A stretch of 64,000 nucleotides of DNA from Rhabdaerophilum sp. SD176. GTDB taxonomy: Bacteria; Pseudomonadota; Alphaproteobacteria; Rhizobiales; Beijerinckiaceae. Positions 29,897 through 35,998 of this stretch are shown here, in pieces. Each line of letters opens with the position of its first letter. Within the stretch, counting starts at the first letter, position 1. The notes below the pieces were generated by a model. The model was given only the letters and a program-made list of their open reading frames with translations. It was not told the DNA's origin and did not search any database. The position numbers were made by a program, and so were the translations under genes. The stretch spans positions 310,001 to 374,000 of the forward strand of contig NZ_JARJNS010000002.1 in the NCBI RefSeq assembly GCF_030143245.1, written 5' to 3'.

Positions 29897-32116
29897 ATGA
29901 CAAATCAGGCTTTTTCTCTTGATATCGGCGGAATGACCTGTGCTGCCTGTGCGCAACGCATCGAGCGGATGCTGGAGCGGGATGGTGGTTTTGCATCGAT
30001 TGCGGTCGATCTTGCCGCCGACCGCGTCGTTCTGGCGCCGAAGGAAACGCTGGCTATTGAAGAAGCGAGCCGGCGCGCTGTCTCGGCGATCGAGGCTGCC
30101 GGATACCGGGCTTTCTCAAGAGGCGGCTCGCTGGAGGAGCGGCGGCGCGCGCGGGCCCTTCGCGAAGCCGAGGCGCGGGCGGAGGCGCGCTGGCTTTTCC
30201 TCCGGGCAGCGGTTTCCCTGGCCGCCTTCCTGCCGTTCGGCATCGCCATGGTGGTGGAGACGCTGCAGGCAGACGGGCATCACTGGATTCCACCCTTCTG
30301 GCAGCTGGGCCTCGCCACGCTGGTGCAGACCTTCGGCGCATGGCCCTTCTACCGGCAGGCCTGGCATGCGGTGCGCGGGCGAACGGCAACCATGGATGTG
30401 CTGGTTGTCCTCGGCACAGGTGCGGCATTCCTGCTCAGCCTCTGGCACCTCTTCGACGGGTCAGCCGGGCATGGTGCGCCGCTCTATTTCGAGGGGAGCG
30501 TCGCGGTCATCGCCTTCGTGCTGGCCGGGAAGCTGGTGGAGCAGCGCGCCAAGCGTGAGGCCGGAGCAGCCCTCGGTGCGCTCGAGGCGCTGATTCCGGA
30601 ACAGGTGGAGATCCGGGATGGCGAGCTCTCCCGGGTGATTCCCCGGCGCGAGGTTCGCCAGGGCATGGTAATCCTGGTCCGGCCGGGCGGCATGTCGCCG
30701 GTCGATGGCGAGATTGTCGAGGGCGTGGCCTTCCTCGATGAATCCAGCCTGACCGGAGAGAGCCTGCCGATCCGGCGCGGACCCGGCGAACGGGTCCAGG
30801 CCGGCGCGGTCGTCAGCGGGGGCGCTCTCGCCTTGCGGGTCGAGGCCGTGGAGGACGAGACGCGGATTGCGCGGCTGGCCCGGCTGATCGAGGATGCAGG
30901 CTCCGGCGCTTCGGGGCGTGTGCCGCTGATCGACCTTGTCACGCGTATCTTCGTGCCGGCTGTGCTGGTCATCGCCGCTTCGGCCTTTGTGTTCTGGCTC
31001 CAGCAGGGGGTCGGGTTCGAGCGCGCCGCCATTATCGCCGCTTCCGTGCTGGTCGTGGCCTGCCCCTGCGCCCTTGGCCTTGCCACGCCGATCGCGCTGA
31101 TGGCCGGGCGCCGCGCCGGTGCGCGGCTGGGCCTGATCGTCGTCGATCAGGGCGCTTTCGATCCCGGAGCCCGGATCGATACCATCGCGTTCGACAAGAC
31201 CGGCACGCTGACCCGCGGGCAACCTGAATTGCTGGCTATCCATGCGAAGGGCGACTCCGATTCCGCGCTGGTGCTGGCTGCCGCATTGGCTGAACGTTCG
31301 GACCATCCGCTCGATCTTGCGCTGCGGAAGGCCGCCGATGCACGCCCGCTTGCGGTGCCGGCTGTCGAAGGCTGGCGGGCCGAAGCCGGCGGGGGCCTGA
31401 GCGGTTACATTAACGGCATGGAAATCCGGCTCGGCTCGCTGGCCTTTGTCCAGCAGGGGGGCACCGGCCGTTTCGACGCGTTGCTTGCCGCCATGCCGGA
31501 AGCGGACAGGGCGCAGCCGAACAGCTTCCTCGGCGTCGATGGCGAGGCGCGCGCGATCTTCGTGGCCGGGGATTCGATCCGCCCCGAATCAGGCGAGGCC
31601 ATCGCCACATTGCGGGCCGAGGGGCTGGAGACCGTGATGCTGTCGGGCGACCGGCAGGCCGTGGTCGACCGGGTTGCCGGTCAACTCGGGATCGATCTGG
31701 CGCTCGGCGGGATGAAGCCGGAGGACAAGCTTGGCTGGCTGCAGGCGCGGATCGGCGAGGGCAGGGTCATCGGTTTCGTTGGCGACGGGCTGAATGACGG
31801 ACCGGCGCTGCAGGCCGTTGCGGTGGGGTTCGCAATGGGAACCGGCACCGAAGTGGCCAAGGGCGCGGCCTCGGTCATTCTCGCCCGGCCGGATCCGCGG
31901 CTTGTCGGACGATTCGTGGCTCTGGCGCGGCGGGTGCGGCGCGGAATCGGCGAAAACCTGTTCCTCGCATTCGTTTTCAACGCGGTGGCGATTCCACTCG
32001 CGGTTCTCGGCCATCTCTCTCCGGCAATTGCCGGGGCCGCCATGGCCCTGTCCTCGATTTCGGTGGCGCTGAATGCCCTGCGGCTGGCCCGCTGGCGGCC
32101 TGTCGGAACCCGTTAA
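29897..32116 (+). CDS. Copper-type heavy-metal P1B-ATPase (CopA-like)
   Basis: 739 residues. One heavy-metal-associated domain with GGMTCAACAQ (CAAC at 15-18), actuator TGES (286-289), transmembrane CPC (389-391, the Cu+ signature), phosphorylation motif DKTGT (from 433) and GDGLND hinge (629-634). The His-Pro motif of the N-domain is SDHPL. It exports Cu+/Ag+ through the inner membrane. ATG 29897 keeps the HMA domain intact though the AGGA upstream is only 2 bases away; ATG 29819 would add 26 residues. Divergent from the MarR gene, not from a CueR gene as is more usual. Confidence 0.93.
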   Translation: MTNQAFSLDIGGMTCAACAQRIERMLERDGGFASIAVDLAADRVVLAPKETLAIEEASRRAVSAIEAAGYRAFSRGGSLEERRRARALREAEARAEARWLFLRAAVSLAAFLPFGIAMVVETLQADGHHWIPPFWQLGLATLVQTFGAWPFYRQAWHAVRGRTATMDVLVVLGTGAAFLLSLWHLFDGSAGHGAPLYFEGSVAVIAFVLAGKLVEQRAKREAGAALGALEALIPEQVEIRDGELSRVIPRREVRQGMVILVRPGGMSPVDGEIVEGVAFLDESSLTGESLPIRRGPGERVQAGAVVSGGALALRVEAVEDETRIARLARLIEDAGSGASGRVPLIDLVTRIFVPAVLVIAASAFVFWLQQGVGFERAAIIAASVLVVACPCALGLATPIALMAGRRAGARLGLIVVDQGAFDPGARIDTIAFDKTGTLTRGQPELLAIHAKGDSDSALVLAAALAERSDHPLDLALRKAADARPLAVPAVEGWRAEAGGGLSGYINGMEIRLGSLAFVQQGGTGRFDALLAAMPEADRAQPNSFLGVDGEARAIFVAGDSIRPESGEAIATLRAEGLETVMLSGDRQAVVDRVAGQLGIDLALGGMKPEDKLGWLQARIGEGRVIGFVGDGLNDGPALQAVAVGFAMGTGTEVAKGAASVILARPDPRLVGRFVALARRVRRGIGENLFLAFVFNAVAIPLAVLGHLSPAIAGAAMALSSISVALNALRLARWRPVGTR

Positions 32117-32159
32117 GCCTGGCGGAAAAATTTTCTCCGCAGGGTGCCGGTTTTTCTTG

Positions 32160-32400
32160 CATCGCCGGATCGATGGACCTATACAGCGCTTGCCCAATTT
32201 CGCACGTGCCTGTGGTTGCGTGCTGGTCGGCGGATCTCCGGACAAGAGGCCGGAAAAACGCCAGTCGTTGGGGACAGCGAGAAATCGCTGGTCCCTGAAG
32301 AACGGACCAGTAGCCGGAGGCGAACCGGCGGCCCCGCCCGAAGCGGGTGACGCAGCTCAAAGCAACGACGGAGCGGGCTTTTTTGGTCTCAGCCGGGTTC
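32160..32400 (+). ncRNA. Structured leader module with alternative hairpins and T-run (possible attenuator or sRNA)
   Basis: No credible reading frame here. GGGACAGCGA (32271-32280) pairs with TCGCT-G-GTCCC (32285-32295) around a GAAA loop. The same 3' strand can instead form a perfect 7-bp stem CTGGTCC (32288-32294) with GGACCAG (32304-32310), so the two exclude one another. GCCGG/CCGGC (32313-32317/32325-32329) follows. CCCGC (32333-32337) can pair with GCGGG at 32343-32347 or with GCGGG at 32373-32377; the second option ends just before six T (32379-32384), as in an intrinsic terminator. The 5' limit is uncertain. It could be a separate small RNA or the first part of the ornithine decarboxylase leader. 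Confidence 0.55.
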
Positions 32401-32513
32401 CAAGTCCGGCGAACTGAAGAGGCTTGTCCATCTTGCCGGGCGTGCGGTCGGGTACTCCCCTTCCAAACGATGGCTTCCTTGACGTGATGTCTGGCTTTGC
32501 GGCTGGCATTACC

Positions 32514-32670
32514 CATGGTCGTCCAACGGCGCAGCGTCACCGCCGTAACGGAACCGCCCAGGTTCCCGCACGGCACGGGACTCATCGGAATCGCTTGCCG
32601 CGTCTCCACCGTGCGGCATGCAGGGAAGATGCGTCCCAAGTGTCCATCGCCCATGCGGGAGAGTCCCGCA
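32514..32670 (+). ncRNA. Ornithine decarboxylase leader, downstream structured module (speF-class candidate)
   Basis: ACGGCG/CGCCGT (32526-32531/32541-32546), GGAACC/GGTTCC (32550-32555/32561-32566), a long-range CGCACGG/CCGTGCG (32567-32573/32609-32615) and GCGGGA/TCCCGC (32655-32660/32664-32669) are perfect stems in nested order. The last hairpin ends just before the AAGGGG ribosome-binding site of the decarboxylase gene. Ornithine decarboxylase genes of alphaproteobacteria are known to carry a conserved leader RNA called speF; position fits, but I cannot confirm the class by alignment. Confidence 0.6.
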
Positions 32671-32686
32671 AGAAGGGGATGCTGCC

Positions 32687-33820
32687 ATGACTGATCGCAT
32701 TCGCGAATTCCTCCGGACCCGCCGTGATGAAGGTCCGCGTCTCATCATCGATCTCGACGTCGTTCGGGACAATTACAACGCCTTTGCCGGCGCATTGCCG
32801 GATACGCGCGTGTTCTATGCCGTGAAGGCCAATCCGGCTCCGGAAATCCTCGAGCTGCTGACCAAGCTTGGCTCGTGCTTCGACACGGCCTCGATCGGCG
32901 AAATCGAGATGGTCCTGTCCGCGGGTGCCACGGCAGACCGGATCTCCTTCGGCAACACGATCAAGAAGGAGCGCGATATCGCCCGTGCCTATGAGCGTGG
33001 CGTGCGCCTCTTCGCCGTGGATTGCGAAGCGGAAGTCGAGAAGATCGCTCGCGCCGCTCCGGGTTCGAAGGTGTTCTGCCGGATCCTCTGCGATGGCGAG
33101 GGCGCCGAATGGCCGCTTTCGAAGAAATTCGGCTGCGTGCCGGAAATGGCGCCGCGCGTTCTCGAGCTGGCTCATCGCCTCGGCCTCGTGGCGCATGGTG
33201 TGTCGTTCCATGTCGGCTCGCAGCAGCGCAACCCGCTGATGTGGAATCGCGCGCTTGCCTCGGCGGCGTCGATCTTCCGCGAAATGGCGGAACGCGGCAT
33301 CGTGCTGTCGATGGTCAATCTCGGCGGTGGTTTCCCGACGAAGTATCTGAAGGACGTTCCGGCCGTGAAGGCCTACGGCCAGGCGATCTTCGCCGCGCTG
33401 CGGGCGCATTTCGGCAACCGCATCCCGGAAACGATCATCGAGCCGGGCCGCGGCATGGTGGGCAATGCCGGCATCATCGAGGCCGAGGTCGTTCTCGTCT
33501 CGAACAAGTCCGATGACCCCTCGGATCTCCGGTGGGTCTATCTGGATATCGGCAAGTTCCACGGGCTGGCCGAGACCATGGACGAGGCGATCCGTTATCC
33601 GATCCGCACCCCGCGGGATGGCGATGACCTCATTCCCTGCGTGCTCGCAGGACCGACCTGCGATTCGGCGGATGTGATGTACGAGAAGGAGCCGTATCTG
33701 CTGCCCTTCAGCCTCGAGATCGGCGACAAGGTGCTGATCGAGGGGACTGGCGCCTATACGACGACCTACTCGTCGCAGAACTTCAACGGCATGACCGGCC
33801 TTCGCCAGATCGTCATCTGA
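32687..33820 (+). CDS. Ornithine/lysine decarboxylase, alanine-racemase fold (type III PLP)
   Basis: 377 residues, fold type III. PLP lysine K48 in YAVKANP; CFDTASIGEIEMVL, GVSFHVGSQQ, NLGGGFPTKY (Gly loop for PLP phosphate), EPGRGMVGNAG and PTCDSADVMYE with the catalytic Cys/Asp are typical of eukaryote-like bacterial ornithine decarboxylases. Makes putrescine (or cadaverine). ATG 32687 has AAGGGG ~8 bases upstream. A 570-base untranslated region with strong folding precedes it. Homospermidine synthase two genes on uses putrescine, so the locus makes sym-homospermidine. Confidence 0.93.
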   Translation: MTDRIREFLRTRRDEGPRLIIDLDVVRDNYNAFAGALPDTRVFYAVKANPAPEILELLTKLGSCFDTASIGEIEMVLSAGATADRISFGNTIKKERDIARAYERGVRLFAVDCEAEVEKIARAAPGSKVFCRILCDGEGAEWPLSKKFGCVPEMAPRVLELAHRLGLVAHGVSFHVGSQQRNPLMWNRALASAASIFREMAERGIVLSMVNLGGGFPTKYLKDVPAVKAYGQAIFAALRAHFGNRIPETIIEPGRGMVGNAGIIEAEVVLVSNKSDDPSDLRWVYLDIGKFHGLAETMDEAIRYPIRTPRDGDDLIPCVLAGPTCDSADVMYEKEPYLLPFSLEIGDKVLIEGTGAYTTTYSSQNFNGMTGLRQIVI

Positions 33821-34564: not shown

Positions 34565-35998
34565 ATGACCGACTGGCCTGTCCACGGCACCATTTCCGGC
34601 CCGATCGTGATGATCGGTTTCGGCTCCATCGGGCGCGGCACGCTGCCGCTGATCGAGCGCCATTTCAAATTCGACCGATCCCGCTTCGTGGTGATCGATC
34701 CGGATGATTCCGACCGCCGCCTGCTGGACGAGCGCGGGATCACCTATATCCAGGCGGCGGTGACACGCGAGAATTACCGCGACATGCTCAAGCCGCTGCT
34801 GACCAAAGGCGAGGGCCAGGGCTTCTGCGTCAATCTCTCGGTCGATACCTCGTCGCTCGACATCATGGAATTCTGCCGCGAAATCGGTGTGCTCTACATC
34901 GATACCGTGGTCGAGCCGTGGCTGGGCTTCTACTGGGACAATTCCGGTGGCGCCGCCGCGCGCTCGAACTATGCCTTGCGTGAAACCGTACTGGCGGCGA
35001 AGCGCCGGAATCCCGGTGGCACGACAGCGGTTTCCTGCTGCGGCGCCAATCCGGGCATGGTCTCCTGGTTCGTGAAGCAGGCGCTGGTCAATGTTGCCTC
35101 GGATATGGGCCTTGATTTCGAGGAGCCGAAAACCCGCGAGGGTTGGGCAGCGCTGATGCACAAAGCCGGCGTCAAGGGCGTGCATATTGCCGAGCGCGAT
35201 ACGCAGCGCGCGAAGAACCCGAAGCCGGCAAATGTCTTCGTGAATACCTGGTCGGTCGAGGGGTTCCTGTCAGAGGGCATGCAGCCGGCGGAACTCGGCT
35301 GGGGCACGCACGAGAAGTGGATGCCCGAGAATGGCCGCACCCATGAGAGCGGCTGCGGCGCCGCGATCTACCTGCTCCAGCCGGGCGCGAATACCCGCGT
35401 CCGCAGCTGGTGCCCGACGCTCGGTGCGCAGTACGGCTTCCTCGTGACGCATAACGAGTCGATCTCGATCGCCGATTTCTTCACGCTGCGGGATGACGCC
35501 GGCAAGCCGATTTACCGTCCGACCTGCCATTATGCCTATCACCCGGCCAATGATGCTGTCCTCTCGCTGCATGAATTGTTCGGCAATGGCGGCACCATCC
35601 AGGAGCAGCACCATATTCTCGACGAGCACGAAATCGTCGACGGCATCGACGAACTCGGCGTGTTGCTGTTCGGGCATTCGCGCAATGCCTATTGGTATGG
35701 CTCGCAGCTTTCCGTCGAGGAGACGCGGCGCCTCGCGCCCTATCAGAATGCCACCGGGATGCAGGTGACCTCGGCCGTGCTGGCCGGCATGGTCTGGGCG
35801 CTGGAGAACCCGAATGCCGGGATCGTCGAGGCCGACGAGATGGATTACAAGCGCTGCCTCGAAGTGCAGTTCCCTTATCTCGGCCCGGTGCGCGGCTTCT
35901 ACACCGATTGGAAGCCGACCGACGGGCGCGAGAAGCTGTTCCCGGAGGATGTGGATTATTCCGATCCCTGGCAGTTCCGGAACATTCTCGTCCGGTAA
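34565..35998 (+). CDS. hss: Homospermidine synthase
   Basis: 477 residues, the usual size. NAD-binding motif MIGFGSIGRGTLPLI at the N-terminus (17-31), then VVIDPDD, TVVEPWLGFYWDN and SCCGANPGMVSWFVKQAL, GWGTHEKWMPENGRTHESGCGAAIYL and HNESISIADFF, all typical of bacterial Hss. It joins two putrescines, or putrescine and spermidine, with NAD+ to give sym-homospermidine, a common polyamine of alphaproteobacteria. AGGAAAG lies about 8 bases before ATG 34565. A strong terminator follows 2 bases after the stop. Confidence 0.96.
   Translation: MTDWPVHGTISGPIVMIGFGSIGRGTLPLIERHFKFDRSRFVVIDPDDSDRRLLDERGITYIQAAVTRENYRDMLKPLLTKGEGQGFCVNLSVDTSSLDIMEFCREIGVLYIDTVVEPWLGFYWDNSGGAAARSNYALRETVLAAKRRNPGGTTAVSCCGANPGMVSWFVKQALVNVASDMGLDFEEPKTREGWAALMHKAGVKGVHIAERDTQRAKNPKPANVFVNTWSVEGFLSEGMQPAELGWGTHEKWMPENGRTHESGCGAAIYLLQPGANTRVRSWCPTLGAQYGFLVTHNESISIADFFTLRDDAGKPIYRPTCHYAYHPANDAVLSLHELFGNGGTIQEQHHILDEHEIVDGIDELGVLLFGHSRNAYWYGSQLSVEETRRLAPYQNATGMQVTSAVLAGMVWALENPNAGIVEADEMDYKRCLEVQFPYLGPVRGFYTDWKPTDGREKLFPEDVDYSDPWQFRNILVR

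Follow-up and report, generated by a model that had tools for sequence, protein, structure and literature searches.

The 64,000-nucleotide (nt) window analyzed here (Rhabdaerophilum sp. SD176, contig NZ_JARJNS010000002.1, positions 310,001 to 374,000) contains a 570-nt gene-free gap at 32117-32686, between a P-type ATPase open reading frame (ORF) ending at 32116 and a gene for ornithine decarboxylase (ODC), whose start at 32687 is backed by homology (Table 1). The original prediction, made from the letters of the window, had described the gap as a long structured leader of the speF type, with four stems close to ODC, beside homospermidine synthase (hss). The gap is real, all four stems exist, and the leader type was right; hss lies two genes downstream. 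What the prediction overlooked was the 5′ half of the leader (32192-32424), which is its most conserved and widespread part and carries a match to ar45 (RF02347), the only Rfam family that exceeds its cut-off anywhere in the window. We read ar45, known as a small RNA (sRNA), and speF, known as a leader, as one cis-regulatory unit of which ar45 would be the terminated product.

Table 1 Features of the leader and its downstream genes, in window coordinates. Paired cells were counted in an alignment of 15 same-genus leaders.
Feature	Position	Strand	Evidence or remark
Promoter-like site CTTGCA (32156-32161), 17 nt, CTATAC (32179-32184)	32156..32184	+	Pattern comparison
ar45 (RF02347), read as 5′ part of leader	32192..32382	+	54.5 bits, cut-off 40
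P1 5′ strand GCCC	32192..32195	+	Pairs with GGGC 32375-32378; 60/60 cells, invariant in genus
Core 5′ strand CGCACGTGCC	32201..32210	+	Core pair in 91/132 ODC-upstream regions
Variable apical domain of ar45	32222..32349	+	Several hairpins in the window's family; short loop in other groups
Core 3′ strand GCAACGACG	32362..32370	+	Core pair in 91/132 ODC-upstream regions
P1 3′ strand GGGC (32375-32378) and U6 tract (32379-32384)	32375..32384	+	Proposed termination site, 3′ end of ar45
P5 5′ strand GGCUUUUUUGGU	32376..32387	+	In minimum-energy fold; 180/180 cells paired
speF leader (RF00518) match	32391..32505	+	27.1 bits, cut-off 37, relaxed threshold; 42/61 relatives
P6 hairpin, enclosed by P5	32392..32410	+	Minimum-energy fold; 89/90 cells paired
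P5 3′ strand ACUGAAGAGGCU, Shine-Dalgarno-like block	32413..32424	+	True ribosome site at corresponding place in other orders
Stem 1 of the original prediction	32526..32546	+	86/90 cells paired, no two-sided change: conserved, uninformative
Stem 2 of the original prediction	32550..32566	+	5/6 pairs with two-sided change, 88/90 cells paired: covaries in genus
Stem 4 of the original prediction, just 5′ of ODC ribosome site	32655..32669	+	62/89 cells paired, 3/6 pairs two-sided, indel-rich; mixed
ODC Shine-Dalgarno AAGGGG	32673..32678	+	
Ornithine (lysine/ornithine) decarboxylase (ODC)	32687..33820	+	Closest solved relatives lysine/ornithine decarboxylases, 2plj E 2.5e-57
Homospermidine synthase (hss)	34565..35998	+	4plp, E 4.9e-260

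We surveyed 61 genomes (the window's own and its relatives) together with 14 control genomes. Matches to speF were obtained in 42 of the 61 (E ≤ 0.001; 24 over the cut-off), to ar45 in 38 (37 over the cut-off), and to the decarboxylase in 43, while neither RNA was found in the 14 controls. All 38 genomes with ar45 also carry speF, at a gap of 6-12 nt in 38/38 and of exactly 8 nt in 29; in the own genome, the single match to the ar45 model is the window locus. The window's speF match falls short of the Rfam gathering cut-off, and the predicted speF identity stands by position before ODC and by homology, the leader being alignable with relatives that exceed the cut-off. A promoter-like pattern, TTG-N17-20-TA, occurs upstream of the conserved ar45 core in 54/54 Rhizobiales-type and 43/64 other elements (shuffles: 7.15 and 8.95) and around the U-tract that follows ar45 in 0/118; these 118 are the elements, out of 186, with enough upstream DNA, and 2 of the 54 are misplaced non-Rhizobiales elements. 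A strict sigma-70 consensus scan returned no promoter in the window leader, where we infer from the promoter-like site a transcription start near 32189-32192.

Across the class Alphaproteobacteria, the Rfam ar45 model with strict filters matched 14/385 genomes. Ten of eleven further class loci share the same order of promoter-like site, compact ar45, UUUUUUGGUCUC, speF-like sequence, and ODC, the exception being L111, which has a weak ar45 match. We assembled 132 ODC-upstream regions, of which 42 came from relatives, 10 from class ar45 loci, and 80 from a class ODC list covering 118/385 genomes at E ≤ 1e-110. The core pair CGCACGUGCC/GCAACGACG, with at most one mismatch in each strand, was present within 750 nt upstream in 91/132 regions, compared with 0.45% of dinucleotide shuffles. 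Outside Rhizobiales the element is compact, for example GACGC ... CGCACGUGCC-NN-UGGCCC-loop-GUGGUUAUGCAACGACG ... GCGUC-CUUUUUGG, and 20 such leaders gave no credible match to Rfam (best ar14, E 0.008, far below its cut-off). A scan of a genome collection for the Rhizobiaceae form returned at least 117 stretches; among the matches listed, 68/80 loci have ODC downstream, and 10 of the 12 others have at most 622 nt of downstream sequence. The remaining two of those listed, in Thiomicrorhabdus (L263) and in an Armatimonadetes metagenome-assembled genome (L318), have no 3′ core strand and appear to be chance matches. We also took as chance the weak Rfam matches to M23 (E 0.7), sn3071, and HepC_CRE in the window and to ar14, mir-598, and mir-575 on relatives.

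Some diverged copies of the core were also seen. Four loci upstream of ODC, all counted as misses (L164 in G154, L168 in G345, L174 in G423, and L167 in G071), have the form CCCACGUGCC or CCCACGUACC ... GUAACGAGG or GCAACGAGG enclosed by an outer stem resembling CGCACC/GGUGCG. Ruegeria sp. TM1040 (L388, upstream of 1402) has CGCACGCGCC ... GUAGCGACGG between GACG and CGUC, before a decarboxylase gene.

A covariance model of 67 positions, built from 25 compact elements that all came from ODC-upstream regions, gave 86 matches in 68/385 class genomes (E ≤ 0.01). At the phylum level (E ≤ 0.001) it matched 12/299 genomes, 10 of them alphaproteobacterial and the other two at E of about 1e-3. Of the 86 matches, 47 lie within 900 nt of a same-strand ODC orthologue, 11 precede one at a distance of 0.9-4.5 kb, and for 28 none is listed. 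We left six out of the context count (G412:C5, with ODC 1.6 kb on, and five at contig ends) and looked at the genes that follow 10 of the 11 more distant matches and 23 of the 28 without a listed orthologue; in 30 of these 33 a same-strand polyamine-synthesis gene or paralogous decarboxylase follows, bringing the total to 77/80 examined matches that precede polyamine genes. Judged by ORFs, Pfam, and NCBIfam, the contexts include a paralogous pyridoxal-phosphate-dependent decarboxylase, homospermidine synthase, and divergent ODC; a deoxyhypusine-synthase-type enzyme, 1,9-bis(guanidino)-5-aza-nonane synthase according to NCBIfam, with agmatinase alongside in 2/3; and S-adenosylmethionine (SAM) decarboxylase with spermidine synthase (speD-speE). 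The three matches without a polyamine gene are those in G130, where a class-I glutamine amidotransferase-like gene lies downstream (L239, 497-1258), a second copy in G095, followed by a 136-amino-acid ORF with no Pfam match (L222, 3231-3638, minus strand), and a weak match in G412 (E 0.0025). Because the core recurs before ODC, homospermidine, guanidino-polyamine, and spermidine genes, the likely signal is narrowed to polyamine supply. Taken by themselves, the fixed ar45-speF tandem with its promoter-like site at the front only and the class-wide core before polyamine genes are conclusions that, on comparative grounds, we consider very likely to hold.

Nucleotides 32192-32424, the 5′ half of the leader, fold with z −2.52, 5/200 shuffles being equally good, and consensus folding of 46 non-Rhizobiales elements recovered P1 to P6 without their being imposed. 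P1 takes the forms GCCC/GGGC, GACGC/GCGUC, GACGU/ACGUC, and CCGUC/GACGG across groups, each complementary. P5 pairs the U-tract strand with a downstream purine-rich block, as GGCUUUUUUGGU/ACYGAAGAGGCU in the window's relatives (mostly invariant across the 15 genus leaders), GCCUUU/AGAGGC in many Rhizobiaceae, and UCCUUUUUGG/CCGAGAGGGA elsewhere, with further variants such as UACUUCC/GGAGGUA. Mean duplex energies of native P5 were −11.5 in 119 Rhizobiales-type elements and −11.8 in 61 others; they rose to −8.0 and −9.0 when one strand was shuffled, and to −10.0 and −8.9 when the partner strand came from the other group. The comparison shows that the U-tract after P1 can pair with a block which in other orders is the ribosome site of the gene or of a short upstream ORF (uORF). 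We rejected a conserved long-range pairing of UCGCACG in ar45 with the GUGCGG block of speF, as the speF side reads GUGAGG in G180, G283, and G368 with ar45 unchanged.

In non-Rhizobiales leaders, a Shine-Dalgarno-like block and start codon follow the core by 52-82 nt in every pick except G391 (127 nt); two true non-Rhizobiales leaders, G358 and G178, yielded no such pick. The picked start codon opens the decarboxylase itself in 11 leaders, and most of the others open uORFs that are 9-59 codons long; a few GTG picks, with frames of 2-4 codons, are probably wrong. These uORFs raise the alternative that their translation is the sensor, as with orf34/speFL of the enterobacterial speF, and that the RNA core only sets the stage. 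Many leaders do combine a Shine-Dalgarno block, AUG, and uORF, and three uORFs, in L136 (G245), L155 (G152), and L152 (G284, second ODC copy), share the C-terminal ending GR(K/E)NPLSS, a possible arrest-peptide motif. On the other side, the uORFs differ in both sequence and length, and in the 11 leaders just mentioned the AUG belongs to the gene itself. The 113 Rhizobiales-type leaders keep the Shine-Dalgarno-like block with no conserved frame after it. A UUG-started uORF within speF was rejected, since it stops at codon 4 or 6 in 14/113 leaders and has no constant length, and GUG CGG is fixed at the nucleotide level in 105/113. We regard a uORF sensor as very unlikely.

We favor, with moderate confidence, the reading of the leader as one composite cis-regulatory RNA for polyamine synthesis that acts through a proposed termination and ribosome-site mechanism. 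Transcription would start at P1, and a signal of sufficient polyamine supply would stabilize the core, upon which P1 would close beside the U-tract. In Rhizobiales, closure of P1 would end the transcript and leave the 'ar45 sRNA', and read-through would yield the speF-ODC mRNA; in other orders, P1 would stack on P5 and hide the ribosome site. For the window, we would expect control mainly at the P1/terminator step, P5 and the later stems being secondary. The layout is that expected of a riboswitch, with a conserved aptamer-like core beside an expression platform (core, P1, U-tract, P5), and the leader is a strong candidate, as yet unproven, for a polyamine-supply-responsive RNA. Of the polyamine link in the original prediction, a polyamine-related role is well supported by comparison, and direct sensing stays a candidate. 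More specifically, and only tentatively, we suggest a polyamine riboswitch family, perhaps for homospermidine or another triamine outside the published list of metabolites given below; P1 would serve as both aptamer base and terminator stem, ar45 would be the OFF product and speF the read-through half, and the same U-strand would form a ribosome-site switch in other orders.

Several observations weigh against the composite cis-regulatory reading. The core is absent within 750 nt in 41/132 ODC regions; among these misses, 10 genomes have the element further upstream, before an operon, and the contig of G006 begins at speF. In 7 of the 77 polyamine contexts, the only such gene seen is a paralogous decarboxylase. 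The core is too conserved for covariation, and pair counts from a 25-sequence alignment show little of it. The P1 helix score separates native pairs (6.9/6.5) only weakly from between-group swaps (6.1), and swaps within a group score almost as native; the argument for P1 therefore comes from the different complementary forms that it takes. P5 swaps within a group are likewise almost native (−11.3 in both groups). A terminator scan found no canonical hairpin, the stem preceding U6 being the long-range P1, and no conserved antiterminator was found. Three published observations, taken up in the next two paragraphs, belong on the same side: the interpretation of ar45 in Bartonella, its association with Hfq, and a negative binding assay. 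A general antiterminator, GUCGUUG:CAACGAC, was rejected, as it occurs in part of the window's genus only. Separately, the ar45 hairpin loop at 32244-32251 holds AAGAGGCC, which could pair with GGCUUUUU (32376-32383) in competition with P1 and could be a lineage-specific antiterminator. Members of the window's family commonly have this loop; G024 does not.

Published expression data can be read in two ways. In S. meliloti, P1 to the end of GGGCCUUU measures 148 nt, which is also the length of the published sRNA smrC45/SmelC706 (3105298-3105445; PMC7143759). A 2008 paper pointed out that speF, originally reported as an element of the ODC 5′ untranslated region, had been detected as the candidate sRNA smrC45 too (PMC2573895). 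In Bartonella, ar45 runs as its own band and a transcript of over 700 nt includes speF (PMC7717549), which we read as termination plus read-through. The Bartonella authors themselves read ar45 as independently expressed, and cite a report that S. meliloti ar45 co-immunoprecipitates with Hfq, suggesting a trans role (PMC7717549); a table of trans-sRNAs also includes smrC45, giving it an RpoH1/2 promoter (PMC7143759). These reports favor an independent, trans-acting ar45 with its own promoter, next to a separately promoted speF-ODC whose closeness is incidental. Such independence sits poorly with the invariant ar45-speF spacing, with the lack of a promoter-like pattern around the U-tract in all 118 elements, and with a homologous core that immediately precedes gene starts or uORFs in other orders and is found ahead of various polyamine genes. 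The cis context argues for ar45 as a putative leader product, and we judge independent action unlikely. In the trp system, rnTrpL of S. meliloti offers an example of a terminated leader with an additional sRNA function (PMC7143759).

The published binding assay bears on what reads the signal. In-line probing of an A. tumefaciens RNA (−400 to +3) in 2005 showed no binding of six metabolites, namely ornithine, lysine, meso-diaminopimelate, putrescine, cadaverine, and spermidine, a list from which homospermidine is absent (PMC1273637). The distance from the start of P1 to the ATG is 400 nt in S. meliloti and 417 and 422 nt in two A. vitis loci (L264, L303), and the A. tumefaciens −400 construct may have lacked part of P1. 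The negative assay would fit the same cis element with a protein, be it an RNA-binding regulator, Hfq, or Rho, as the reader of its signal, for which CGCACGUGCC/GCAACGACG would be the recognition site; the invariant sequence in short internal loops and the Hfq co-immunoprecipitation of S. meliloti ar45 (cited in PMC7717549) also speak for it. Metabolites beyond the published six, such as homospermidine, could still be ligands, and on balance we think a protein reader possible and somewhat unlikely. We know of no candidate protein that reads the core, and no search for one was made.

The stems adjoining ODC, which in a narrow form of the original prediction would be the sensor, lie in a region alignable within the genus only. 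The last 181 nt of the leader fold better than 200/200 dinucleotide shuffles (z −3.13), and the stem at 32550-32566 covaries in the genus. Covariation, proposed at the time as a check, is clear in this one of the four named stems in the genus-level alignment and not in the other three: two of the four show no two-sided change, and the stem 32568/32614 is doubtful, with 74/89 cells paired and none two-sided. The idea that these stems are themselves the sensor is, in our view, scarcely credible. They are probably genus-level additions to the composite leader.

Among known systems, the leader overlaps two Rfam families. It matches ar45 (RF02347; smrC45/SmelC706) in sequence and structure over the cut-off; Rfam files this family as an sRNA gene, whereas here it would be the terminated 5′ part of an ODC leader, and its core occurs class-wide, past the reach of the Rfam model. 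With the speF leader (RF00518; Corbino et al. 2005) it shares the gene, the position, conserved P6, and the GAAGAGGC block, but the Rfam model covers the second half only and scores the window's match below its cut-off. The 2005 description of an extended element near the putative transcription start, with a large insertion, fits ar45 plus speF (PMC1273637). The odc1 motif is likewise alphaproteobacterial, upstream of ODC, with its ribosome site in a stem, and has been proposed as a possible riboswitch, but it has a UUG main start, a UUG uORF start 2 nt before, and a fixed 11-amino-acid uORF starting at nt 75 (PMC8632094). UUG-NN-UUG was found 30-100 nt after the core in 0/64 non-Rhizobiales elements, and the window leader has no conserved frame; odc1 is thus set apart by its described features, though it may be related to the present element. 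The Salmonella speF leader with orf34 is also a long ODC leader that controls termination and the ribosome site, but its sensor is uORF translation with Rho and RNase G, a likeness drawn by description only (PMC6386406). A spermidine riboswitch shows that a polyamine-responsive class has been reported, but it is a SAM aptamer variant, and the text of that report makes no mention of speF, ornithine decarboxylase, or homospermidine (PMC10853860).

The ar45 and speF families of the window are already known. What appears new is the joining of the two, the form outside Rhizobiales that Rfam does not match, and the polyamine-wide gene set; our searches of the open-licence PMC literature returned no paper that brings ar45 and speF together with other polyamine genes. 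No ligand was given for speF at its publication in 2005 (PMC1273637), and a 2020 Bartonella paper stated that no ar45 family member had been functionally characterized (PMC7717549). If ar45 and speF are treated as one element, each acquires a definite function that can be tested. For studies of binding and structure, the compact forms of other orders are better suited than the long leader of Rhizobiales.

Around the ODC start, an in-frame ATG at 32618 was rejected as the start codon, as it is not kept in the genus alignment. ORFs within the gap, such as 32424-32690 (88 amino acids), show no conserved frame there, with 1-nt indels in the genus alignment. A four-codon frame, ATG CTG CCA TGA (32679-32690), overlaps the ODC start codon immediately 3′ of the Shine-Dalgarno and is present in 15/15 aligned genus leaders; it may be a chance product of spacing. 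The own genome also carries two paralogous decarboxylases, at G000:C11:728274-729323 and G000:C20:418614-419711 (32% and 31% identity).
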